Source: a virus
Strand: one strand, 5' to 3'
Virus record (IMG/VR): IMGVR_UViG_3300006737_000121
Coordinates: 1 to 29,359 of that record
Length of the DNA stretch: 29,359 bases
Part shown: piece by piece, positions 6,793-20,132 of the stretch
Position numbering within the stretch: the first letter of the stretch is position 1
Layout of the letters: each line of letters starts with the position of its first letter
Notes under the pieces: model-generated
Told to the model about the DNA's origin: nothing
The model's input: only the letters and a program-made list of their open reading frames with translations
The model's database searches: none
Position numbers and translations under genes: made by a program

Positions 6793-7000
6793 TTTTTATT
6801 TCATCCCTGTGCCTACGCACAATCTGCATTTGTTTTGCTACACGAACTGCAGGGTTAGATAAGTCTAAACCAGAGTCTATTTTAGCCATACTTGTTTTTG
6901 AAAGCAAGCCACCTTTTGGTTTTTCAGGTGTATCGCTAGGCATGTTCTCTATATCCATATTATAGTATGCTCTAACAACATCAGTAAGCGCACGAGACAT
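6785..7000 (-). CDS. Small basic protein, unknown function
   Basis: This is a 71-aa protein with AGAGGAAACATC directly before its ATG, overlapping the end of the 863-aa gene by 20 bases. The middle (KPKGGLLSKTSMAKIDSGLDLSNPAVRVAKQ) looks partly unstructured and the end is basic. No membrane segment or catalytic motif is seen. Tight packing on both sides supports a real gene. I infer a minor virion or assembly role from position only. Confidence 0.55.
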   Translation of the reverse strand: MSRALTDVVRAYYNMDIENMPSDTPEKPKGGLLSKTSMAKIDSGLDLSNPAVRVAKQMQIVRRHRDEIKNG

Positions 7001-9572
7001 GATGTTTCCTCTTCTTCTTTTCTACTACTAAATCCATCAACTTTTTAGTTGCCCATTTTAATGGCGGCACTTTTGATATTACTTTTGCATAGGTTTCTCC
7101 GTGCTTCATGTACAAGTTCTTAAACCATTTGGGTGAGTCATACTGTAACCATGTGCGGAATATAAACCACTGAACATTTTGTTTGCCATATACTTCACGG
7201 GCTACCCAGCATCCTGACATAATCCATGCGCTACCTAGCGTACCAATTAGACTACCTACCGCGCTACCTGCTGCAGATGAGGAGCCTTCTGCTGCGACTG
7301 CGCTACGTGTAGCAGCATCTAATTCAGCTATAGCCAAAGCGTTGTTACGGTCAATTTGATTTTCTGCAGATGTCCACGCCCACTCCATAGTGTCAGCATA
7401 ATAATTCCATAAGTTACTATATGCCTGTTTGCTAATATCTAGAATAGCATTAGCGTTAAGTTCGTTAGTACGATTAATGGCTGCGGTATCTGCAGTAGCA
7501 ATCTGTCTACGCCACTGTGCGTTAGACTGTGCAATTACAAGTTGATTTTGGGCATTAAATTGGTCACGTTGATTATTTAACTCAGCATTAAATCTTGCTA
7601 TGGTATTAGTCTGACCTGCGTTAAATTGTGACTGCGCATTTTGCTGCGTTGCATTAAACTGTGCCACTTGATTAGACAAGTTAGCAAAAAATTGGTCTAC
7701 TTGATTTTGACTAGCTGCATTAAATTGTCTAGCTGCGTTTGCTGCAGCAGTGTCTGTGAACAATGACTGCGCACGTTGTTGCGCTTTAAACAAATCTGTC
7801 TGTTGTCTGTTAGATAAGTTAGCCATATCAATCTGCAAAAATGATTGTGCATTTTGTACTGCAGCCTGCTGACGATTACTTAAATTAGCAACATCTAACT
7901 GCGCTAAAGCTGAAGCATTAGCCATTACAAGAGCCTGCGTATTAGACAGGTTCTGTAGATTCATCGTGTTTGCTACACGACTATTTTCTAACTGCACTTG
8001 TTGTTCTGCAGTAAAGTTTTGATTAGCTACATCTGCAATTCGCGCAGCATTTTGTACGCGCATTTGGAATGCTTGGTCAAACTCTTGACCTATAAATCTA
8101 GCACGTTGTTCTGCAGCAAGCATAGCAGCTTGTTGACGGTTAGATAAATTCTGCGCATCAAAACGGGCAATTGTTTGTGCATCTGCTTGTGCAATAGGCA
8201 ACGCACTTTCCATAGCTGCCTGTACAATAGCCTGCCCAGCTAAAGACGAAGCTCCTAAACCGCGCTGCGCCATAGCTGCATTAGCATTTCGGATAGCTCC
8301 TGCGGCCCATGCTGGTGTGTTACCACCTACAAATTGCTGCATTAATCCATCAAGTTGATTTTGTACTAAAGCCTGTGCTGATGGATTAGCTGATGCTGCA
8401 GCAGCCTGTGTCTGTGCAGTAACTGCAGCAGCAGCAGCAGCATCTACACCTGTCCCCGTGATAAGTTCGCCTGCTTGTACCTGCCTTTGTACAGGATTAT
8501 TTATAAGAGTAGCATTACCCTGCGCAGCCTGTAGGTTGCCCACAGAGGACACTGTTTGTTGAGCAGCAGTAACCTGTGCGCGAGGGTCTACAGGGTTAGC
8601 CTGCGCAGCTTGTGTAGCCTGCATTGCAGTGTTTATAGCAGGTGCTGACTGTGCAGCAGTCATTGTATTTGCCTGCATAGCACTAGGCATTTGTGCTTGT
8701 CCAGTCGTAGCCATAGCTGTAGGCGTAGCTATCTGACCAGTCAAAACACCTACTCCGCTTGACACATCTTGTGAGGGGTCTGTTTGTGTTAGTTGTGCTA
8801 CAGTTTCACCACCGACAGGCACACCGGGGCTGTACATCTGTTGCACAGTAAACGGTTGAATACCCGGCTGATTAGCTTGAGGTGTTGGCACAGTAGCAAT
8901 AGGAGTGCCTTGTTGCCCTGTCGCACCTGTAGTTGCTACAGAAGGTGCTTGTGCTGTACCGACTGAGCCACTTACAGGTACACCGCCTACTGTACCACTA
9001 CCTGCAACACCTGTAGGTGAACCAGTTACTGTACCACTTACAGGTACGCCACCTATGGTGCCTGTGCCACTAACACTACCACCTATTGTAGAATTTGGAG
9101 CCGTGCTAGGGAAACCGGGAACTTGTTGTTGATTAACTAACGCACCGCCGCCTGCAGGTTGTATTGGTTGTTGTGCTGCTGCTTGTGCTTGTGCTTTGGC
9201 TAATGCTTGTTGTGCTTGTGGTAAGCCTGTTTGTTGTAACTGATTTAGTTCTGCTATCATACTATTAAGGACGTTAGTATCGGGGTTACCTTTATTGTTT
9301 TCGTTGTCTATTAGCCTTTCTAATGTTGCCATCCGTGATTGTATATTAGTAACATTTTGTTGTGCTGTTGTTACAGTGCCACCATTAGCAAACTTTTGTA
9401 CCATACCACCTTGTGCCATTTTTCTAGCAGCATTAGTATACATATTCATTTGCTGTTGTCTGGCTGGGTCTTGTTCAATAAACTCTTGGAACTTATTCAT
9501 GTCACCAGAATAGCCCATAGTCTTAGCAATCTTGTTCATAGCCTCTGGCTTAAATGCTTTAAACTGCATCAT
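6981..9572 (-). CDS. Ala/Gln-rich repetitive structural protein with conserved C-terminal module
   Basis: This 863-aa protein has a patchwork build. The N-terminus has a short helical region and the QGGMVQKFANGG motif (about 53-65). Next come a coiled coil, a Gly/Thr/Val repeat (GTGTIGGVPVSGTVTG and GSGTVGGVPVSGSVGT), and a long low-complexity Ala/Gln region. About 200 residues with repeated ANLSNRQQA and (Q)FNAxxQ units follow, predicted helical. The end is a Gly/Ser stretch and a module starting near residue 788, CWVAREVYG ... FRTWL ... HGETYAKVI, then a basic tail. That C-terminal module recurs in marine phage virion proteins as I recall. Position and helical repeats suggest an internal core or ejection protein. 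A tail-associated rod is the alternative. It overlaps the upstream gene at ATGATG. Confidence 0.6.
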   Translation of the reverse strand: MMQFKAFKPEAMNKIAKTMGYSGDMNKFQEFIEQDPARQQQMNMYTNAARKMAQGGMVQKFANGGTVTTAQQNVTNIQSRMATLERLIDNENNKGNPDTNVLNSMIAELNQLQQTGLPQAQQALAKAQAQAAAQQPIQPAGGGALVNQQQVPGFPSTAPNSTIGGSVSGTGTIGGVPVSGTVTGSPTGVAGSGTVGGVPVSGSVGTAQAPSVATTGATGQQGTPIATVPTPQANQPGIQPFTVQQMYSPGVPVGGETVAQLTQTDPSQDVSSGVGVLTGQIATPTAMATTGQAQMPSAMQANTMTAAQSAPAINTAMQATQAAQANPVDPRAQVTAAQQTVSSVGNLQAAQGNATLINNPVQRQVQAGELITGTGVDAAAAAAVTAQTQAAAASANPSAQALVQNQLDGLMQQFVGGNTPAWAAGAIRNANAAMAQRGLGASSLAGQAIVQAAMESALPIAQADAQTIARFDAQNLSNRQQAAMLAAEQRARFIGQEFDQAFQMRVQNAARIADVANQNFTAEQQVQLENSRVANTMNLQNLSNTQALVMANASALAQLDVANLSNRQQAAVQNAQSFLQIDMANLSNRQQTDLFKAQQRAQSLFTDTAAANAARQFNAASQNQVDQFFANLSNQVAQFNATQQNAQSQFNAGQTNTIARFNAELNNQRDQFNAQNQLVIAQSNAQWRRQIATADTAAINRTNELNANAILDISKQAYSNLWNYYADTMEWAWTSAENQIDRNNALAIAELDAATRSAVAAEGSSSAAGSAVGSLIGTLGSAWIMSGCWVAREVYGKQNVQWFIFRTWLQYDSPKWFKNLYMKHGETYAKVISKVPPLKWATKKLMDLVVEKKKRKHHVSCAY

Positions 9573-9976: not shown

Positions 9977-11089
9977 TTATAACTCCGATGCAAAATCGAA
10001 CGAAACTTCAATAGCACCACTAGCACCATTTGACTGAATAGTTGCGCCACCACCTGTAACAAATGCACTTCCGCTTGATGAAGCAGCCGCAATACCTATC
10101 TGTGTTACATTCACATCTGAAGCCGCTACTGCAATAGAATTTAAAGCGTATGCAAAATTAGTAGAGTTCACAGTTTTATCAATTGTTAGTGTGGGCTGCA
10201 CTCGCATTGGCTGTGGAAAATATATAATGCCTGTGCCATCATCGCCGCTATAAGTTCTTATTGTACAAAACTCTCCGTAAGCGTTTGTTTTCTTTAATCT
10301 GTAGAAATATCTGAGACAATCTTTTAAATCTTCAGCATACGTTTTGTGTTCAAATGATGAGGCAGTTGTGCCTATTTCAAGTTGAACACCTGTAATTTCT
10401 ATAAAGTTATCTGTGCTTGCAAAAATACTTCCTATGCCAGCGGCACGATTTGCATTGGTAGTAGCAGCCAAAGCATCATCGTTTATAGTGCCGCTAGTAT
10501 ACGTGCTACCCGCATGAAGCCAAAAGTTTACTTCTAATTCACTTGAGTTATCGTCATCAATCTGTGTGCTAGAGGCGGCTGGCACAGTCATAGTATACCT
10601 TGCCCAATCCGTTCCTATTGTGTGAACTTTACTAATTTGTTTGTTTGTTCCGTTAGTAAGCAGTACTTCAGATGCAATGGCTCTACTTTCATTTGACCTA
10701 GCGTAAAACGAAAGCGTAAATCCTTTTGTTGATGTGCTACTATTTTTAAATTTTTGTAAATTTTGTCCTTCAATTTTTTGACTAAATATAAAATATTCTC
10801 CAGCAGCTATTGAAGTATCAACAGTTGTGCATTGAATCTTCATGCTGTTTGAAAAACCTGCGAGGTTTGTAACTGCTGTTTGCGTCATGCTTACACGACC
10901 AGCAGATGTTGAGCCTATATAAAGACCCCATCTATCTACATTGTTATACGCAGTAACACCATCAGCACCTACACCTGTTGATGTAGTGCTTCTCTGTGCT
11001 ACTTGCATAGCACCATTAATAATAGCATTTACATTAGAAAATGCCGATTGTGAACCTATAAGTGCCGCTAGTTCTGCTGCTTTACTCAT
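9977..11089 (-). CDS. Tail fibre / receptor-binding protein with carbohydrate-binding-like fold
   Basis: This is a 370-aa beta-rich protein. The start NAIINGAMQVAQRST (about 21-35), the VDRWGLYI segment, KGFTLSFYARS, DWARYTMTVP, and ITGVQLEIG ... FEHKTYAEDLKDCLRYFYR (about 235-265) follow the order seen in phage tail-fibre proteins with a carbohydrate-binding-type beta sandwich. The C-terminal 100 residues are Ser/Gly/Ala-rich and look like a second beta domain. It probably contacts a host surface glycan. It is the last member of the fibre array and starts inside an ATGA overlap with the GDLA tail of the preceding gene. That tail provides its GGAG site, seven bases before the ATG. Confidence 0.75.
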   Translation of the reverse strand: MSKAAELAALIGSQSAFSNVNAIINGAMQVAQRSTTSTGVGADGVTAYNNVDRWGLYIGSTSAGRVSMTQTAVTNLAGFSNSMKIQCTTVDTSIAAGEYFIFSQKIEGQNLQKFKNSSTSTKGFTLSFYARSNESRAIASEVLLTNGTNKQISKVHTIGTDWARYTMTVPAASSTQIDDDNSSELEVNFWLHAGSTYTSGTINDDALAATTNANRAAGIGSIFASTDNFIEITGVQLEIGTTASSFEHKTYAEDLKDCLRYFYRLKKTNAYGEFCTIRTYSGDDGTGIIYFPQPMRVQPTLTIDKTVNSTNFAYALNSIAVAASDVNVTQIGIAAASSSGSAFVTGGGATIQSNGASGAIEVSFDFASEL

Positions 11090-11472
11090 GCTAAGTCTCC
11101 GTGTGCTACACCAGTAAGAATGTCTGGGTCTACTGCACTTGTGCTTTCATTCGCTCTGGATGTTAGATACATGGAGCCAGCAAGTTGAACCCCATCTGCA
11201 CCCAACTCCGCACTAAGAACATCACCACTTAAACCAGCAGACGTTACAACAGAATAGTCAGCCGCGCCAAAACTGCTTGTAAAATTGCTTCTACCTATTC
11301 CTGTGCCTACATCATCTAAACTAGATACGTTAAAACTTCCAATGATTGAAGCGGTGCCGACAAGTTCAACTCTTGAATGTGCTTTTGCACTACCCCCTGC
11401 AACAAAGCTGGTGGCGATACTATTATTACCGCTGGCATCCTTCAGGGTGTTTACTCTAAGTTCGCTTGCCAT
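11086..11472 (-). CDS. Stand-alone fibre module, GDLA family copy 7
   Basis: This 128-aa member has the family start MASELRVNTL, SFNVSSLDDVGTG at residues 46-58, then NFTSSFGAADY, and ends GDLA. The region between the core motif and the tail is unlike the other copies, as expected if each copy carries its own binding surface. In other phages this kind of module occurs as a domain within tail fibres; here it is a gene of its own. Its ATG shares one base with the previous stop (TAATG). Its own GGAGACTTAGCA tail is the ribosome site of the 370-aa fibre gene. Confidence 0.75.
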   Translation of the reverse strand: MASELRVNTLKDASGNNSIATSFVAGGSAKAHSRVELVGTASIIGSFNVSSLDDVGTGIGRSNFTSSFGAADYSVVTSAGLSGDVLSAELGADGVQLAGSMYLTSRANESTSAVDPDILTGVAHGDLA

Positions 11473-11855
11473 TATGCTAAGTCTCCATGCACAGTGAAAT
11501 AATCAACACCATCACCAGCACTATTACCTGCACTACTAGAAAGTAACGTAAAAGAACCAGTAGCGTCAGTTCCAGATTGTTGAATATGCTTTTCTCCAGA
11601 GATTGCTGGGAAAACGTAGTTGGCACTTGCCATTGCGTTTGTGAAACTGGGTGTAAAATTTCCTGCTGAATTATCAGCGACACTGGCAATGTTGAGGCTG
11701 TCATTCACAGCAGGTGTAGTTTGGTTATATTTAGCCCACGCCTTCGCCAACCCCTGCTGAAGATTAGTCGTGGTTGAGTTGCCTTCGCCAGTAACACTAA
11801 TAGAGCCAGCGGTTGTTACACCTGTCAGGGTATCTACTTTAAGAATACTAGCCAT
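11472..11855 (-). CDS. Stand-alone fibre module, GDLA family copy 6
   Basis: This 127-aa member starts MASILKVDTL and holds VTGEGNSTTTNLQQGLAK at residues 21-38, a stretch shared residue for residue with copy 2 (14332-14763). The core SLNIASVADNSAG is at 53-65, followed by FTNAMASANY and the GDLA end. The shared stretch differs from copy 2 at many synonymous positions, so it is kept at the protein level and is not a fresh copy. It has TAATG overlaps at both ends. Confidence 0.75.
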   Translation of the reverse strand: MASILKVDTLTGVTTAGSISVTGEGNSTTTNLQQGLAKAWAKYNQTTPAVNDSLNIASVADNSAGNFTPSFTNAMASANYVFPAISGEKHIQQSGTDATGSFTLLSSSAGNSAGDGVDYFTVHGDLA

Positions 11856-12220
11856 TATGCAAGGTCTCCGAATGTAACTGCGCTAACCCTATTTGAATCC
11901 GCAACAGAATCGCTTTCATATGTTTCAATATCATAAAGAGCAGTTGTTGGGTTTGCACACGCAATAGACTTACCTGTATTTGTTGATGCTGCTTGTGAAT
12001 TATTACCAAATGCATAATCTGCGTTGGACATAGCATTAGTGAATGTTACTCGCCCTACCCCTGTTTGCTGGTCTGTCAAACTGCTAACTTGAAAACTGTC
12101 ATCTATGGTATGACCAGTGCCATATTTTATCCATTGCCTTGCCGCAAACTGCTTAGTCAATGCAACAGGCCCAGTACCAGCCTTATCTGCAATAGTATCT
12201 ACATTCAATACGCTGGTCAT
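11855..12220 (-). CDS. Stand-alone fibre module, GDLA family copy 5
   Basis: I start this 121-aa member at 12220 (MTSVLNVDTI), not 12232, because that ATG forms an ATGA overlap with the upstream stop, has GGAG seven bases ahead and fits the family N-terminus. The core is DSFQVSSLTDQQTG (41-54), then FTNAMSNADY, ending GDLA. This is the only copy whose tail Leu codon is CTT instead of TTA. The tetrapeptide is kept although the base changed, which argues for selection on the peptide as well. Confidence 0.75.
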   Translation of the reverse strand: MTSVLNVDTIADKAGTGPVALTKQFAARQWIKYGTGHTIDDSFQVSSLTDQQTGVGRVTFTNAMSNADYAFGNNSQAASTNTGKSIACANPTTALYDIETYESDSVADSNRVSAVTFGDLA

Positions 12221-12675
12221 ACGATACTCCAATAACCATTAACGGTGACTGTGGCGTTCTGTGTAATAGGCCCAGCCGACACGCCATTCTCATCGCTGTC
12301 AATCGTAATATCTGCGCTAATGGTTTGCCCATTTAAGCGGATGATACTGTTGTTACCTTTGAAGGGATAGCGTGTATCACTCTCTGTTTTGGTGTAGCTG
12401 CTTGCTACAGCAAAAGTGTCATACACCACCATCTCAACAATATCGTTAGTGTTGGCACCTGTGACTAATACAACGCTTGTGCCTGTCGTAGCAGCATAGT
12501 CAGTACCGGGCTTGAGAAGCACGCCGTTCTGATACACGTCCATGTACAGGCTGTCTGTATAGCTCAGTGTTTTTGCATCTCCGTCACTGCCACTGAATGT
12601 TGTTTGACTAGATGTAGCTTGATACACGAAGCGGTTACGAACACCAAACTCTGGGGACTTTCCTATGTATGGCAT
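12217..12675 (-). CDS. Tail-fibre type protein, MPxxGxxP family (152 aa)
   Basis: It starts MPYIGKSPEFGVRNRF and has a first beta domain (SGSDGDAKTLSY ... YMDVYQNGVLLKPGTDYAATTGT) and a second (NNSIIRLNGQTISADITI ... GPITQNATVTVNGYWSIV). A paralogue lies at 15128-15580 with the same two-part layout. In marine phages such segments form the shaft or attachment part of tail fibres. Its last codons, TGG AGT, carry the GGAG used by the next gene. It lacks the GDLA end. It may be the adaptor to which neighbouring modules attach, but that is inference. Confidence 0.7.
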   Translation of the reverse strand: MPYIGKSPEFGVRNRFVYQATSSQTTFSGSDGDAKTLSYTDSLYMDVYQNGVLLKPGTDYAATTGTSVVLVTGANTNDIVEMVVYDTFAVASSYTKTESDTRYPFKGNNSIIRLNGQTISADITIDSDENGVSAGPITQNATVTVNGYWSIV

Positions 12676-13085
12676 TACGCTAAGTCTCCTGCACCTATCA
12701 TGTACAAATCATCGACATCTGAATCGCCGGGTCCATTTGTTACATTTACATTTAATCTGCTGTCCGATGCTGTAGGAGTGTTTAGTTCTTGAACTACATA
12801 GGGTCTACTACTGCTTTCATCTTTATTACAGGTGCCTAATATTGTTCTGTTTCTGCTGGAGAAAGCATTCGTAAAATTAAAATCGTATATTCCCGTTCCC
12901 TCATCAGAAGCAGAACTTTGATTAAAGCTATCTCTAAGAGCTATCGTTCCCGTGCCGTCTAGGGTAGCAAATGTTTTTATCAACCCCTGAATGACGCTAG
13001 TAGTAACAGCACCGCCTTCTGAATTGGATGTGGTGGTGTTATTAATCCCCGCGCCTAACGCTGATAATATTTTAGTTAAAGGCAT
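12675..13085 (-). CDS. Stand-alone fibre module, GDLA family copy 4
   Basis: This is a 136-aa, more diverged member. Its start is MPLTKILSALG rather than the LKVDT type. VIQGLIKTFATLDGTGTIALRDSFNQSSASDEGTG (31-65 in pieces) and FTNAFSSRN identify the family, and it ends GDLA with the last codon GCG instead of GCA. A GGA lies after the upstream stop, so this copy has its own intergenic site and is the first gene of the second half of the array, after the chaperone-like pair. Confidence 0.7.
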   Translation of the reverse strand: MPLTKILSALGAGINNTTTSNSEGGAVTTSVIQGLIKTFATLDGTGTIALRDSFNQSSASDEGTGIYDFNFTNAFSSRNRTILGTCNKDESSSRPYVVQELNTPTASDSRLNVNVTNGPGDSDVDDLYMIGAGDLA

Positions 13086-13095
13086 AACCTATTCC

Positions 13096-13470
13096 TTATG
13101 CGTAAGGGCTGTCACCCAGTACAGATGTGTCCCAAGCTGCTTTGAGCTTTGCAATGGTGTCTGCATTGTTAATTGCAGAAGCGGCAGGTGCGTCACGCAA
13201 TGCCTTCTTCTTATTTACAGAAGCAGTCTTTGCAGAAGCATCATCAGCCTCTAGTGCTTTCATATATACAACATCCTCTGCCTCAAGCAGTGGCTTGCGA
13301 ACTTCACGGATTTTGTCCTTGAAAATAACTTTAGCAGCAGCCATATCTTCAGAAATGACTTTGCCACTTAATGACCATGCACCACGAAAGTGACGGTCAG
13401 AAGGAACGGTTGCGGTTGAAGCATCAATCTGATTCCCGTCCTTGTCTACGATGTATGTTGTTGGTGCCAT
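13096..13470 (-). CDS. Tail assembly chaperone-like protein
   Basis: This 124-aa protein has an N-terminal beta hairpin (TTYIVDKDGNQIDA), the motif VPSDRHFRGAWSLSG at residues 22-36, and a helical half: DKIREVRKPLLEAEDVVYMKALE and KKALRDAPA. The (K/R)xxR..LL...D ... A....W/LRD.P order recalls phage tail-fibre assembly chaperones, which help fibres fold but are not part of the virion. The assignment rests on this pattern only. It shares the P..R..R.AW motif with its upstream neighbour. It has its own GGAG after the preceding stop. Confidence 0.55.
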   Translation of the reverse strand: MAPTTYIVDKDGNQIDASTATVPSDRHFRGAWSLSGKVISEDMAAAKVIFKDKIREVRKPLLEAEDVVYMKALEADDASAKTASVNKKKALRDAPAASAINNADTIAKLKAAWDTSVLGDSPYA

Positions 13471-13481
13471 TAGTTTTCTCC

Positions 13482-13955
13482 TTATGCAGCCAATTCAGTG
13501 ACGCTTAGTTCTTCAGTAATCTTCCAAGCATTGCGCCACTCACGTGTACCCGGAAGCTGTTCTTTGCGGCATATAACCATCTTAGGTTTGTTGCCCTCAT
13601 CCCAATTGCGCCATACATGCTGTGGGCAATCTTTCATAATTAAGTATTCTAGTGCTTGCTCTTCTGTCATAGCCTCTACAGGCTTTGTGTTGTGTAGCAA
13701 GTGTCCACGAGTATGTTTTACAAAGTCAGGCTTTGCTTCATCTTTTGCTAGTTCCCAATATACCTGTACTGGTGGTAAGATACCGCCCTGTAGGGCTGCT
13801 GCCATCCAGTTAGGGTCAGGCACAAGTATCTTTGCGCATTCGTCTATGTTGTCTTCGTATACTACACGATAGTCTGACTGATGTGGCTCAAGATTTTCTT
13901 TTGCCCAACATAGTCTATCAAATAGGTGTGTGCCTTGAAACTCTGGTGTCTGCAT
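13482..13955 (-). CDS. Unknown protein, probable partner of the chaperone-like gene
   Basis: This 157-aa protein is rich in Trp, His and Pro (LFDRLCWAKENLEPHQSDYRVVYEDN, VYWELAKDEAKPDFVKHTRGH, CPQHVWRNWDEGNKPKMVICRKEQLPGTREWRNAWKI). The C-terminal LPGTREWRNAWKI matches VPSDRHFRGAWSL of the next gene. The first half could be a distinct small domain. It ends ELAA. I infer a role in fibre assembly from the shared motif and the position inside the fibre array. No enzyme motif is recognised. Confidence 0.55.
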   Translation of the reverse strand: MQTPEFQGTHLFDRLCWAKENLEPHQSDYRVVYEDNIDECAKILVPDPNWMAAALQGGILPPVQVYWELAKDEAKPDFVKHTRGHLLHNTKPVEAMTEEQALEYLIMKDCPQHVWRNWDEGNKPKMVICRKEQLPGTREWRNAWKITEELSVTELAA

Positions 13956-14332
13956 TATGCTAAGTCTCCTAAAATCATAGAGCCAACTGGATAATCTTGA
14001 TAAGACACAGAGGTGTTAGCTGCACCTGTGCCATACTGTGCTGTTGTTGTTGCACTCGTAGAAGCAAGTACAAACACTACATTTCCGTTTTCATTCTGTA
14101 CAGTTAGGTTTATTGCATAAGTAGCATCAGACATGGAATTTGTTAAATTTACATCTACTTGACCTGTTGCCCTATCATCTATTGAACTAACATTTAATGA
14201 TTTTGAAATTGTTGTTCCATCGGCTGTATTGTTTGCAAACGCCTTCGCACTACCCTCAACAACGAACTTTGTATCTACAGAGCCGGAGGTGCTGTGTTCT
14301 AGGGTATCTGCTTTGATTTTTCCTAGTGCCAT
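13955..14332 (-). CDS. Stand-alone fibre module, GDLA family copy 3
   Basis: This 125-aa member starts MALGKIKADTLEHSTSG. Around residues 24-32 it has VVEGSAKAF, close to VAGGSAKAH in copy 7. Its core is SLNVSSIDDRATG (45-57) followed by LTNSMSDATYAI. It ends GDLA with GGAGACTTAGCA and shares one base with the start of the 157-aa gene. Of the seven copies it is the only one followed by a chaperone-region gene. Confidence 0.75.
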   Translation of the reverse strand: MALGKIKADTLEHSTSGSVDTKFVVEGSAKAFANNTADGTTISKSLNVSSIDDRATGQVDVNLTNSMSDATYAINLTVQNENGNVVFVLASTSATTTAQYGTGAANTSVSYQDYPVGSMILGDLA

Positions 14333-14763
14333 TATGCTAAGTCTCCAAATACTGCTGCTTGATTTAATATGGCATCAAGATAGCCGCCATCATAAGTCGC
14401 AAAAGAATAACCCGTTGTAGCAATACCAAGTGTCAAACTACTTGCAGTTGTACCTAAAGCAGTATCAGCAGACCCTCCAAAGTTGTCAGACGTGGCATAA
14501 TTATTAGAAACACCTATCGGAGCATTATTAGTATTTCCCATATTATTAGAATAAAGTAGATGGTATAACCCAGTTCCTACGTCTGTAATACTACTTGCAT
14601 TAAAACTATCTCTAATTGCAGGCGTACTTGTACCATTAAAATTGGCCCAATGTTTTGCCAACCCCTGTTGCAAGTTAGTGGTTGTGCTATTACCTTCACC
14701 TGTTACAAGGATAGACCCAGCAGTGCTTGTGCCAGTGAGTTTGTTTGTTTTTACCTCACTCAT
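14332..14763 (-). CDS. Stand-alone fibre module, GDLA family copy 2
   Basis: At 143 aa this is the longest copy. It starts MSEVKTNKLTGTSTAGSI, then VTGEGNSTTTNLQQGLAK (20-37, identical to copy 6), HWANFNGTSTPAIRDSFNASSITDVGTG (core 53-65) and a variable Gly/Thr/Ala-rich half rich in tyrosines near the end. It closes FGDLA. Its start lies in an ATGA overlap with copy 1, and its tail provides GGAGAC for copy 3. Confidence 0.75.
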   Translation of the reverse strand: MSEVKTNKLTGTSTAGSILVTGEGNSTTTNLQQGLAKHWANFNGTSTPAIRDSFNASSITDVGTGLYHLLYSNNMGNTNNAPIGVSNNYATSDNFGGSADTALGTTASSLTLGIATTGYSFATYDGGYLDAILNQAAVFGDLA

Positions 14764-15131
14764 GCTAAGTCTCCAAATAACGCATAATTTCTACCGTCTG
14801 CATCTGATGCTGATGAAGTAGAGTGTGTCTTTAAAACCATACTAGATGTTGCCCGAACATATGTTCCACTAAGCTCTTGAATACATGCAATGAAACTGTT
14901 TTCTTTTGCGGTGCCGATATTTGAAAAATTTGCATTACTCATATTGTTAGTGAAGTTTGCCCTAACTACACCAGTATCTTCATCTGTAAGACTAGCTACA
15001 TTAAACGACCCCGTAATACTAGGAGTTCCATCGCCCTCAATAAAGGCCCACATTTTAGCTGGACTTTGATTAGTCAACGTAGCCGCACCACCGCTCGTGC
15101 TTTGTATGGTATCTGCTTTTAATGTACTCAT
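14760..15131 (-). CDS. Stand-alone fibre module, GDLA family copy 1
   Basis: This 123-aa member is the first of the array in transcription order. It starts MSTLKADTIQSTSGG, has SPAKMWAFIEGDGTPSITGSFNVASLTDEDTG in two adjoining parts (core 42-54) and FTNNMSNANF (60-69), and closes FGDLA. The ATG lies in an ATGA overlap with the preceding fibre gene. Only a weak GGTGA precedes it, so translation may depend on ribosomes finishing the upstream gene. Confidence 0.75.
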   Translation of the reverse strand: MSTLKADTIQSTSGGAATLTNQSPAKMWAFIEGDGTPSITGSFNVASLTDEDTGVVRANFTNNMSNANFSNIGTAKENSFIACIQELSGTYVRATSSMVLKTHSTSSASDADGRNYALFGDLA

Positions 15132-15580
15132 AGCGTCACCAATGTCCCGCCAGACTCGACTGTAAGTGTAACACCAGAAGCCACAGTAAACGGACCAGTT
15201 ACGTTGGCGTTCTCTGTGGCTAGGATAGTGGTGTCTACAGTCAGACTTTGATTGTTTGTGCGGAAGATACCGCCAGACTTAAAATTACCTCTGTTTTCTG
15301 CGGCAGGTGAAATAGACCCAGAAGACACGCCCATGTACATAACAAAGATGTTGTTGCCAGAGTTACTTGATGGCGCTTCATCAAAGGTAAGTGCAGTTCC
15401 ATTAGGTACAGTATATGAACCATCTGGTTCTTGCACTACACCGTCTACTGAAACAATAATGTCTTCTGCACGAGCCGTTTGATTTAGGGTAAAGATAGTT
15501 GTTGAACCATCTCCGCTAAACTCTTGGCGCGTTGGCCTAGACTGAAAGCTGGCGTTAGGTAGGTTGCCTAGAAAGGGCAT
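15128..15580 (-). CDS. Tail-fibre type protein, MPxxGxxP family (150 aa)
   Basis: It starts MPFLGNLPNASFQSRPTRQEF and continues SGDGSTTIFTLNQTARAEDIIVSVDGVVQEP, then YTVPNGTALTFDEAPS ... IFVMYMG, a beta domain common in marine phage fibres. The second part holds FRTNNQSLTVDTTIL ... NVTGPFTVASGVTLTV, matching the GPIT...VTV end of its paralogue at 12217-12675. It heads the first group of GDLA modules. Its ribosome site GGAGATAACCTA is formed by the last codons (MEIT, stop) of the upstream gene, with which it shares one base. Confidence 0.7.
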   Translation of the reverse strand: MPFLGNLPNASFQSRPTRQEFSGDGSTTIFTLNQTARAEDIIVSVDGVVQEPDGSYTVPNGTALTFDEAPSSNSGNNIFVMYMGVSSGSISPAAENRGNFKSGGIFRTNNQSLTVDTTILATENANVTGPFTVASGVTLTVESGGTLVTL

Positions 15581-15909
15581 TAGGTTATCTCCATAATACT
15601 CAAGGCTGTGTCTGCACTATTAGCAGTATCAGAAACTACGCTAATTGTGTGCGTTGTTTCCATCACGATTTTGTTACCTGACATGTATTCAAATGCACCA
15701 CCTGCAGGTATCGGTATATTTTTAGCCAAGAACACAGTAGATGCTGCACTTAGCTTTATATCTACTGTGATTTGGCTTGACGTAGTGTTAGAAATAGTCA
15801 GACCAATAACCACAGTAGTTGTTGACGCAGGAACGGTATAAATATTCATCGCTGCATTAGCTGCAGTGCTAGACCCATCAAACGTCTTTACTTTGAAGGT
15901 ATTAGCCAT
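15580..15909 (-). CDS. Small beta-rich virion protein (109 aa)
   Basis: This 109-aa Thr/Ser/Ala/Ile-rich protein has no charged helices. The pattern MANTFKVKTFDG, NIYTVPASTTTVVIGLTISNTT, IPIPAGGAFEYMSGNKIVM, and the end SIMEIT is one I associate with small phage tail-associated beta-sandwich proteins. It has its own AGGAG after the upstream stop. Its place at the head of the fibre block, right after the 149-aa protein, suggests a tail or fibre-base component. No precise role is supported. Confidence 0.6.
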   Translation of the reverse strand: MANTFKVKTFDGSSTAANAAMNIYTVPASTTTVVIGLTISNTTSSQITVDIKLSAASTVFLAKNIPIPAGGAFEYMSGNKIVMETTHTISVVSDTANSADTALSIMEIT

Positions 15910-15919
15910 AACTTACTCC

Positions 15920-16369
15920 TTACGCTACATCATCTAGCAATGCTGCCACTACACAAGTTACTGTGCTTGAAGAAGAGATTGCGTGAATGTCTCCGACAGT
16001 AGTGTTTGGCAGATTAGCATAAAAGCTATGACCAGCTTTAATCTTGATAGCGTCTCCTGCGCTTGTTGAAGCAGTGCCAGCATCAAGGACAATGTATACG
16101 TCATTGCTTGAATCCGTGTTTTTAATAAACAAGAAGTTGACTTTATCACCAGTTGCAATAGCTGTAGGTGCAGTGTCATCGTCTACTGCAGTATAGTCAA
16201 TAAAGTTACCAGCCATCAAGTCTGTGCTAGAATTAGACACACTTGTTAGCTTGTAATACCATTTATCGTTTGCATCTGCAGGTGATATTGTCATGCTGCC
16301 AGAGATAGTCTTGGCAATCTCATCAGGCAATACCGTTGCCTGTACGGTTACTGAGGCATCGTCTGCCAT
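15920..16369 (-). CDS. Small beta-rich virion protein (149 aa), first gene after fibre promoter
   Basis: This 149-aa acidic beta-rich protein includes VTVQATVLPDEIAKTISGSMTISPADANDKWYYKL in sections, NFLFIKNTDSSNDVYIVLDAG and IKIKAGHSFYANLPN. The last two read like a beta sandwich in which a value-holding strand pair repeats, as in small phage structural proteins. It ends DDVA. AGGAG lies six bases before the ATG, and a consensus promoter lies about 30-60 bases upstream, so it is the first gene of its transcript and may be made in high amount. Confidence 0.6.
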   Translation of the reverse strand: MADDASVTVQATVLPDEIAKTISGSMTISPADANDKWYYKLTSVSNSSTDLMAGNFIDYTAVDDDTAPTAIATGDKVNFLFIKNTDSSNDVYIVLDAGTASTSAGDAIKIKAGHSFYANLPNTTVGDIHAISSSSTVTCVVAALLDDVA

Positions 16370-16403: not shown

Positions 16404-16432
16404 ATTATACCACAACTATAGTATTTTGTCAA
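16404..16432 (-). promoter_or_regulatory. Consensus sigma70 promoter for the fibre array
   Basis: On the minus strand, TTGACA (16427-16432) and TATAAT (16404-16409) are both perfect and spaced by 17 bases, with TG at the extended -10 position (TGGTATAAT). An A-run (AAAAAGTGC) lies just upstream of the -35. The predicted start is near 16397, leaving a leader of about 28 bases before the 149-aa gene. It fills the only real gap in this part of the block, at 16370-16439. Confidence 0.85.
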
Positions 16433-18626: not shown

Positions 18627-20132
18627 TTATCTCCTCGCGTCAGCCTGAAACTCTAGTTGAAAACCTTTTAAAGAATATGGGATAGATGTGCCTCTATCGT
18701 TTACACGTAACGCCATTGCAAAGCCACTACCTTCTACAGGTTGTCTAATTATTGGGTTTATGTTACCGCCGTAAGTAGCAGTGCCATATGTAGATGAACC
18801 ATAAACAGCCACTATGGACGTACTATTAAATGGATATGCTGCAGGTCTAGGAGCATTGCCTGTTTCATAATCATATCTAAGAAATAAATCTGCGTTTACG
18901 ATACCCTCTGGTGCATAGTTTATAGTTACTCTTTGGAATCTTTTTCTTATGCCAGCATCGCCCATAATAAAATCGGGAGAGCGATATTTACCTGTTACAT
19001 CACTACCGTCAAAGTTATTGCCTTTTTCTTGACGATAAACAAAACCATCAAAGTCTCCATGCAATACTATGCTATCACCAGAAACAACTACACTATCTGT
19101 ACTATTTGCCCGTATGCCTCGTAAGTCAGCAAACTCATAGCTATTTATTTTACGAACACAAATTAAACCTTTTGTTGTGTTTCTAGGAATGCTGGCATTT
19201 GAAAAGAAAATTCTGTATTGAGTTTTGTCTGGTATAACAACGCTGTTAAATTCATCTACATCAGACACCCCTGCAAATCTTTCTTGTACAGGTTTACTAA
19301 TTGTGCCTAGCTCAACATCCCCAATTTTTTCCGTGCCTGCAATAGTTCTCAAGCCATCTTTACTTAGGAATACAACATCACCTGCAAACTCTTGTATAGT
19401 AAAACCATTAGAGCAGCCTATTTCCCGTGTTATAGGTTGAACGGTAAAATCAGCTATTGTACTTCCTGCTAGTCTAAAAATTCTTTCTTCACAAAAGATA
19501 TACAAGAAATCTCTAAACGGAACTAATCCAGTTATAGGACTATCTACAGCTATAGTTCCTGCACCGTTTGCTACAGAAAAATCATCATCAGTAAATGGCG
19601 CAGTAAACACTAACTCTTGCGGATTACTTGACATACCAGCAAAAAACAAAGCATCTTTAAATCCAGTAACAATAGACGGGTCTGCTGGTGAGCCTGTGCC
19701 TGTTAAATCTGTAACTGTGGTGTTGTCATACTTAGATGCAGGATTAGAACCGTCTGCCCATACTATAAAATCTGTACCTGCTAAATTATATCTAAAGAAT
19801 GTATATCTACCTGCACTTGTTCTGCCTGTATCAATCTCTGTCCAACTACCTGTAGCTCCACCTTTGTGTACCTTACCACCTCTAGCTGCAATTACGTTGC
19901 CCTTAAAATATGCAGACATTAAGACAGGCTCAGAAGAACTTGAGTCTTGTGGAACTATATTACTATTCCATTTTTGGTAGCCTGATATTCTTCTATACCC
20001 ACCTGTGATAGACGGTTCAAAGTTTTCTAATTCTGTGGCTGTTCCCGGTTGTTGTGCAAAAGGAGTTTGGTCTAATATTAATCCACCCTCACATGCAAAT
20101 AAAAATGGATTAACGCCAGATGCATCTGCCAT
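18627..20132 (-). CDS. Head-tail stopper / tail hub protein (P22 gp10-like)
   Basis: This 501-aa beta-rich protein starts near FLFACEGGLILDQTPFAQQPGTATELENFEPSITGGYRRISGY in overlapping sections, followed by repeated propeller-like strands (GKVHKGGATGSWTEI, PQELVFTAPF, GLVPFRDFLYIFCEERIFRL, DVVFLSKDGLRTI, DFDGFVYRQEKG). The KGNVIAARGGKVHKG and FCEERIFRLAG signatures recur in stopper/hub proteins that follow the adaptor in podoviruses. It would sit under the portal-adaptor ring and retain DNA. Placement right after the adaptor gene supports this. No enzyme motif is present. Confidence 0.7.
   Translation of the reverse strand: MADASGVNPFLFACEGGLILDQTPFAQQPGTATELENFEPSITGGYRRISGYQKWNSNIVPQDSSSSEPVLMSAYFKGNVIAARGGKVHKGGATGSWTEIDTGRTSAGRYTFFRYNLAGTDFIVWADGSNPASKYDNTTVTDLTGTGSPADPSIVTGFKDALFFAGMSSNPQELVFTAPFTDDDFSVANGAGTIAVDSPITGLVPFRDFLYIFCEERIFRLAGSTIADFTVQPITREIGCSNGFTIQEFAGDVVFLSKDGLRTIAGTEKIGDVELGTISKPVQERFAGVSDVDEFNSVVIPDKTQYRIFFSNASIPRNTTKGLICVRKINSYEFADLRGIRANSTDSVVVSGDSIVLHGDFDGFVYRQEKGNNFDGSDVTGKYRSPDFIMGDAGIRKRFQRVTINYAPEGIVNADLFLRYDYETGNAPRPAAYPFNSTSIVAVYGSSTYGTATYGGNINPIIRQPVEGSGFAMALRVNDRGTSIPYSLKGFQLEFQADARR

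Follow-up and report, generated by a model that had tools for sequence, protein, structure and literature searches.

Small candidate receptor-binding tips with slot-specific address peptides and exchangeable heads in an HMO-2011-type marine podovirus

Why would a phage encode a tail-fibre module seven times, each time as a short gene of its own? The question is raised by a stretch of 29,359 nucleotides (IMG/VR virus record IMGVR_UViG_3300006737_000121, positions 1 to 29,359; hereafter, the window), which is a fragment of the genome of a marine podovirus of the HMO-2011 type. Seven minus-strand genes of the window, S1 to S7, encode proteins of 123, 143, 125, 136, 121, 127 and 128 residues, respectively, all ending in GDLA. 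We consider it highly probable that these proteins are a rack of separately encoded receptor-binding tips, each probably homotrimeric, which would be plugged in place by N-terminal address peptides and would bind host receptors. The seven tip genes map as follows.

14760–15131, minus strand: S1 tip, address at residues 1–26 and head at residues 27–123; matches PHROG 11355; AlphaFold2 (AF2) model with a predicted local distance difference test (pLDDT) score of 86
14332–14763, minus strand: S2 tip, address MSEVKTNK..LQQGLAK; matches PHROG 11355
13955–14332, minus strand: S3 tip, address MALGKIKADTLEHS..VVEGSAK; matches PHROG 11355
12675–13085, minus strand: S4 tip; matches PHROG 11355; relatives often hold other proteins in this slot
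11855–12220, minus strand: S5 tip, address MTSVLNVDTIADK..LTKQFAAR; matches PHROG 11355; ATG start at 12220
11472–11855, minus strand: S6 tip, address MASILKVDTLTG..LQQGLAK; matches PHROG 11355
11086–11472, minus strand: S7 tip, address MASELRVNTLKDASG..VAGGSAK; matches PHROG 11355

The original prediction, made from the letters alone, described seven separate genes with their own starts and stops, 1- or 4-base overlaps and GDLA ends, and is confirmed by the open reading frames (ORFs) and by PHROG 11355. Neighbouring genes overlap through TAATG or ATGA junctions (among others, S1 with its upstream gene F150 at 15128–15131, S1/S2 at 14760–14763, S2/S3 at 14332, S5/S6 at 11855, S6/S7 at 11472, and S7 with the downstream gene E370 at 11086–11089). 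The length of S5 stands at 121 residues from the ATG at 12220, not at the 125 residues of the ORF that begins at an upstream TTG. PHROG 11355 (‘tail fiber protein’) is matched by all seven tips (E 5e-8 to 2e-19) and by all 109 members of alignment A2, and a single tip used as query recovers the other six in the window (E 2.5e-8 to 6.7e-13); membership of one family is therefore not due to chance. Searches with the tips found no family in Pfam and no match among PDB sequences, and an Rfam search gave no match. Overlaps of 1–4 bases might also be left by an ordinary tail-fibre gene fragmented by sequencing error or decay, but this is scarcely credible. Relatives with one continuous gene had been named as the sign of such errors; the same separate genes occur instead in the isolate HMO-2011, in dozens of independent contigs and in probable prophages, and start motif, address and ribosome-binding site are separate for each gene.

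Two sets of loci were compared. The first consists of 80 loci among at least 595 IMG/VR relatives of A157, a candidate chaperone gene located directly downstream of S3; A157 was chosen as query since the mixed alignment of the seven tips is too variable to seed a contig scan. A scan with the homologue of Microcystis phage Mel-JY33 yielded the second set, 80 loci that are more distantly related and differ in their structural genes. The A157 homologue of Dunaliella viridis virus SI2, used in the same way, found no viral contigs.

Tip proteins are composed of an N-terminal address of 26–38 residues and a hypervariable C-terminal head of about 100 residues, and the two parts vary almost independently. 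When 309 proteins of this type (M proteins) were cut at the alignment column following ‘..AK’, the mean similarity of addresses was 0.68 within the same slot and 0.22 between slots. No slot effect is seen in the heads (0.177 within and 0.174 between slots). The best match of an address in another locus lies in the same slot in 293 of 309 cases. The pattern persists after clonal collapse, in which loci sharing a near-identical head were merged to leave 200 proteins and slot labels were shuffled within loci 2000 times: 192/200 addresses have their best match in the same slot (shuffles, mean 36, maximum 60), as do 32/200 heads (null expectation, 32.8). In the more distant set, the corresponding figures are 107/117 for addresses and 35/117 for heads. 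Individual start motifs tell the same story: among M proteins, MSEVKTNK is restricted to slot 2 (10 proteins), and it also starts 15 non-M or unassigned ORFs; MTSVLNVD is confined to slot 5; and MASELRV occurs in 30 slot-7 proteins and in 4 others. Divergence of the S1 address tracks that of F150 (r 0.67; partial r 0.66 given A157), a covariation absent from the heads.

Heads have moved between slots. In the clearest cases, head DNA is 0.90–1.00 identical across different slots, with both outer flanks at 0.40–0.61 identity (random, 0.44). For instance, S6 of locus L033 and S1 of locus L031 have identical head DNA (1.00), flanked by sequences with identities of 0.44 upstream and 0.52 downstream. 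In slots with a common address class, such as S1 and S5, identity reaches into the last address codons. The head of the window S1 is found elsewhere behind an S3 address (92%), an S6-type address (80%), an S1 address (77%) and an S7 address (52%). In related loci, some heads are shared exactly and others are wholly different, with addresses alike throughout. Of three window heads used alone in scans of 2.9 million viral contigs, two, those of S5 and S7, returned no close relative except essentially one contig, in which the heads are identical; the head repertoire must therefore be very large. That the tips may be interchangeable and receptor-binding, one of the options originally listed, is thus strongly supported, heads being shuffled among positions and phages behind fixed N-termini.

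Constant starts followed by hypervariable heads recall dedicated diversification machines, such as a diversity-generating retroelement or an invertase shufflon. We regard such an origin of head diversity as very unlikely. Heads differ through whole-domain replacement rather than point variation of a template, and the sole inverted repeat found is 80% complementary and lies away from tip boundaries. Reverse transcriptase (PF00078) was found in 0/10 related records, some of them possibly fragments and one the complete HMO-2011 genome. Serine recombinase (PF00239) was likewise found in 0/10 records, again including possible fragments; tyrosine recombinases were not searched. Both profiles detected their controls in known genomes.

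The remaining genes of the region, read on the minus strand in the order T727 fibre, s149, s109, F150, S1, S2, S3, A157, C124, S4, F152, S5, S6, S7 and E370, are the following.

16404–16432, minus strand: putative sigma-70 promoter with the consensus TTGACA-17-TATAAT, 12/12 match, directly before the tip operon
15920–16369, minus strand: s149, first gene of the operon, structural-type protein kept in a subset of relatives
15580–15909, minus strand: s109, small protein of the phrog_1276/26609 type (PHROG, locus layouts)
15128–15580, minus strand: F150, candidate fibre base or adaptor opening the first tip set (phrog_18673, tail fiber, E 1e-25)
13482–13955, minus strand: A157, candidate tip chaperone directly downstream of the tip triplet, highly conserved (AF2 pLDDT 82.5)
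13096–13470, minus strand: C124, tail-fibre-assembly-like (phrog_20196, E 2e-33; weak matches to phrog_4912/8746, tail fiber assembly)
12217–12675, minus strand: F152, second candidate fibre base or adaptor (phrog_18345, tail fiber, E 1e-5)
9977–11089, minus strand: E370, larger terminal fibre protein with the constant start MSKAAELAA (phrog_4492, tail fiber, E 2e-51)

The two fibre-type genes and the chaperone-like pair predicted at the outset are thus present, and the profiles of F150 and F152 converge. Comparison of copy number and order in related phages, proposed at the same time, reveals a very regular layout, F-M-M-M-A-C-X-F-M-M-M-E, across the first set. Among the 89 loci carrying both F and A, the number of genes between them is three in 81, four in 6, one in 1 and two in 1; the three-gene spacing between fibre base and chaperone also holds on unrelated phage backbones. 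The standard unit therefore comprises one base gene, a triplet of tips and the A-C pair, and in HMO-type phages it is followed by another F-M-M-M set. Because S1 addresses are closest to S5 in 39/41 cases, S2 to S6 in 32/33 and S3 to S7 in 46/49, the two sets likely arose by duplication; the reverse closeness holds for S5 and S6, and the exception of S7, whose address is closest to that of S2, not S3, leaves the proof incomplete. In E370, the start MSKAAELAA precedes unrelated bodies in relatives.

In loci L052, L064, L070, L074 and L075, the tip cassette lies behind different structural genes (225, 222, 256, 290, 225, 100, 150 residues and others), and hence the cassette has moved among phage backbones. 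Loci of another phage type (L188, L191, L192 and L201) carry arrays of up to about seven tip-like genes, some ORFs having two module matches. Probable prophages with an F-M-M-(M)-A-C arrangement were also identified in alphaproteobacterial genomes (L202–L209), in contigs of Terasakiella, Curvivirga, Microvirga and Methylocystaceae.

Some slots hold different types of protein; examples searched against Pfam contain C1q, Peptidase_S74 or Peptidase_G2 domains. These proteins usually retain the first 8–12 or so residues typical of the slot. For instance, slot 6 of HMO-2011 encodes a C1q-domain protein starting with MASVLKV, as other slot-6 proteins do, and many slot-2 proteins of 180–410 residues start with MSEVKTNK and end in other domains. 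Some replacement proteins have starts that are similar, not identical, to those of the slot (MSLIKT.., MSKILVNTIG..). In HMO-2011, two small genes adjoining such replacements encode Phage_tail_APC chaperones according to Pfam. Alternative heads accompanied in the same slot by a small Phage_tail_APC-like chaperone gene were observed in slots 2 and 6 of HMO-2011 (L008) and in loci L015, L025, L033 and L043, as if each head class brought its own chaperone. Fibre proteins of the C1q, S74 and G2 types are homotrimeric in known phages. The replacements are known fibre domains, whose chaperones are either separate or built in. Read most economically, these sequences make every slot a fibre tip of its own, probably homotrimeric, with A157 and C124 serving the M-type heads.

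The constant triplet and its three distinct, position-specific addresses could also be accounted for by obligate hetero-oligomers, in which S1–S3, and likewise S5–S7, would form heterotrimeric tips on F150 and F152. We judge this arrangement, which the original prediction had listed, to be unlikely. Heads within a triplet are unrelated and are exchanged independently across slots, which makes a co-adapted interface between heads improbable, and any slot takes unrelated heads, among them known trimeric fibre domains of the C1q, S74 or G2 type. Distinct tips may nevertheless share one branched fibre.

The AF2 model of the S1 monomer features an all-beta head at residues 27–119 or so, with pLDDT mostly above 90; the first 20 residues are less ordered. 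The nearest PDB folds are C-terminal tip domains of phiAB6 (Z 7.8), Pam1 (7.6) and AP22 gp53 (6.4). Further neighbours in the Z range of 5–7.8 are tips of LKA1, K64-1 S2-4 and an R-type pyocin fibre, along with Helix pomatia agglutinin, the snail lectin HPA (5.6); a Foldseek search with the tip model gave E > 0.01. The same head occurs fused to conventional fibres. In Dunaliella viridis virus SI2 (L118), this head forms the end of a 491-residue fibre directly upstream of A and C homologues; a Labrenzia alba contig (L207) has a 712-residue fibre that likewise ends in it just before A and C; and further long fibres with the head as C-terminal tip are present in the second locus set. A157 thus follows a tip in fused-fibre phages as well. 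Taken together, the consistent fold neighbours and the fused relatives strongly support assignment of the modelled head to the fibre and tailspike tip-domain class. As anticipated, the module occurs in many predicted viral proteins, by itself in some and within long fibres in others. In distant homologues (L117 and L118), the C terminus of A157 and the N terminus of C124 share a P-x-DR-x-FR-x-AW motif, hinting at a split or duplicated element.

Some phage head-decoration proteins have immunoglobulin or lectin folds, and this, with the many copies, would suit decoration, decoy or non-specific adhesion proteins that do not determine host specificity. The chances of this alternative appear slim to us, as conventional fibres of other phages end in the same head just upstream of A and C, the PHROG assignment is to tail fibres, the genes lie in the tail-fibre region, and genes for host recognition are typically hypervariable, as metaviromic islands show (PMC3909814). 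The decoration system originally considered is thus less likely when detached from host binding.

The GDLA tail seems to carry constraints at two levels. Among 281 proteins, glycine is encoded by GGA in 98% (23% elsewhere), aspartate by GAC in 95% (36%) and alanine by GCA in 92% (38%), and these codons are followed by TAATG or TGAGTG. A repeat encoding GDLA and the next start was detected by repeat search at all seven tip junctions of the window.

11081–14774, minus strand: 20-nt repeat GGAGACTTAGCATAATGGCA, seven copies, one per junction between a tip and the next gene

Because of the codon bias and the junction repeat, the sequence encoding the tail most likely has a second role, providing the following gene with its ribosome-binding site and coupled start; the junction is possibly a recombination handle as well. 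Dunaliella viridis virus SI2 keeps GDLA as protein with other codons, and distant members have the variants GELA, GRLA and GTLA. Given the codon bias, an explanation of GDLA at the protein level alone was rejected as incomplete; constraints on both protein and nucleotides seem to act.

These data suggest how the operon might work. It would build a multi-tip host-recognition apparatus, with each address plugging its tip into one particular socket in the tail-fibre complex (F150 and F152, or their vicinity, being the most likely site) and each beta-sandwich head of about 100 residues binding a host surface molecule. A157 and C124 would most likely act as folding chaperones of the M-type head, and all seven tips would be displayed simultaneously. 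Heads could be exchanged by homologous recombination between the address DNA upstream and the GGAGAC..GCATAATG junction downstream, leaving assembly untouched. We are evenly divided on a broader proposal, namely, that every virion shows all seven different tips together at fixed sockets, that host recognition evolves combinatorially, and that the unit is an adhesin standard across phage families infecting Alphaproteobacteria and some cyanobacteria.

Several observations weigh against the reading of the operon as a rack of tips. Gene adjacency confounds the covariation between the S1 address and F150, and for S6 and S7 the corresponding test with F152 gives a weak result. When only the first half is compared, the address of S7 is nearest to that of S2, not S3. 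Fold Z-scores, which come from a monomer model, are middling, all being below 8 although above those of unrelated structures. The AF2 model of A157 matched no known fold in a fold search, and a T4 gp10-like branching domain was not found in F150 or F152 by Pfam or PDB sequence search.

Pieces of the window match the DNA of Puniceispirillum phage HMO-2011 at 83%, and the gene order is identical; recognition of portal, major head protein and terminase PHROGs in the window indicates synteny with HMO-2011-type phages. The set from s149 to E370 probably forms one transcription unit, as most HMO-type relatives have the sigma-70 consensus in the same position: of 40 related loci, 25 match it at 12/12 and 29 at 10/12 or better, about 45–63 bp upstream of the first gene. 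The putative promoter is identified as a consensus match. TTGACA-17-TATAAT of HMO-2011-type loci was not found in the alternative backbones with the same tip cassette. A PHROG profile search with s149 gave no match.

The principle of multiple receptor-binding proteins (RBPs) with slot-specific N-termini and exchangeable C-terminal modules is already established in Ackermannviridae (PMC8432352). Phages such as Kuttervirus CBA120 and S117 carry several RBPs per virion, the tailspike proteins (TSPs) TSP1–TSP4, which are numbered by conserved slot-specific N-termini and have variable C-terminal modules, some 91–100% identical on different TSP types and with a shared junction motif (PMC8432352). 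The TSP complex holds up to four copies, and a designed fifth is unstable (PMC11414711). The rack resembles these systems in having slot-specific N-termini and C-terminal modules that are exchangeable between slots. In contrast, TSPs are enzymatic proteins of 700–1200 residues with large XD/TD docking domains, whereas tips have about 125 residues and addresses of 26–38; the rack numbers seven or more tips per phage with head and address almost fully decoupled, and an XD/gp10-like domain was not found by sequence. In the anchor-branched systems of K1-5, G7C, KP32 and phiK64-1/RaK2, secondary RBPs attach to an adaptor by conserved, short N-terminal peptides, which in K1-5 are a hepta- or undecapeptide; docking peptides of this kind have been described in K1-5-like and Klebsiella phages (PMC6872550). 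The rack differs in that a gp10-like adaptor domain was not detected by sequence, the cargo is tiny and non-enzymatic-looking, and many more slots have position-specific peptides. In Alteromonas phages A5 and V22, a fibre-chaperone host recognition module is common to phages of different families (PMC10579305); fibre and chaperone are paired, as they probably are in the rack, but the fibre is a single large one rather than a set of small tips. In metaviromic islands of marine phages, genes for host recognition, tail fibre and C1q genes among them, are hypervariable (PMC3909814); the islands come from the same environment but concern under-recruiting genes rather than slot addresses or head exchange.

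HMO-2011 itself (GU557055) has the same operon and order, with genes individually annotated as ‘putative tail fiber protein’ and a C1q protein in one slot. As for the architecture, neither the address/head organization nor the shuffling of the HMO-2011 fibre region, nor any published account of a tip rack, was found in the open-access literature searched. Missing from the earlier reading of seven tip genes were the addresses specific to each slot, the constant triplet, the ribosome-binding site that underlies GDLA and the HMO-2011 annotation. What is new here is heads of about 100 residues with short addresses, the number of slots and the near-complete independence of head and slot, as well as a standard triplet unit with its own partner genes, spread over phage backbones and alphaproteobacterial genomes.

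An abundant ocean phage type thus appears to rebuild its host grip by exchanging small parts. The address/head rule explains why short genes in these genomes seem unrelated among close relatives; the same rule makes it possible to catalogue and type heads, to match them to hosts and to read a socket code from 8–12 residues. As a small natural case, the rack illustrates how docking and binding may be separable in a phage adhesin, and it is present in probable prophages of cultivable Alphaproteobacteria.

Two further minus-strand genes of the window were noted. The first (6981–9572) encodes an 863-residue protein with repeated ‘ANLSNRQQ’ segments, located at the position of an internal virion protein and having no PHROG match. 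The second (18627–20132) encodes a 501-residue tail protein that matches PHROG 5107 (‘amidase’) across most of its length (E 9e-84).

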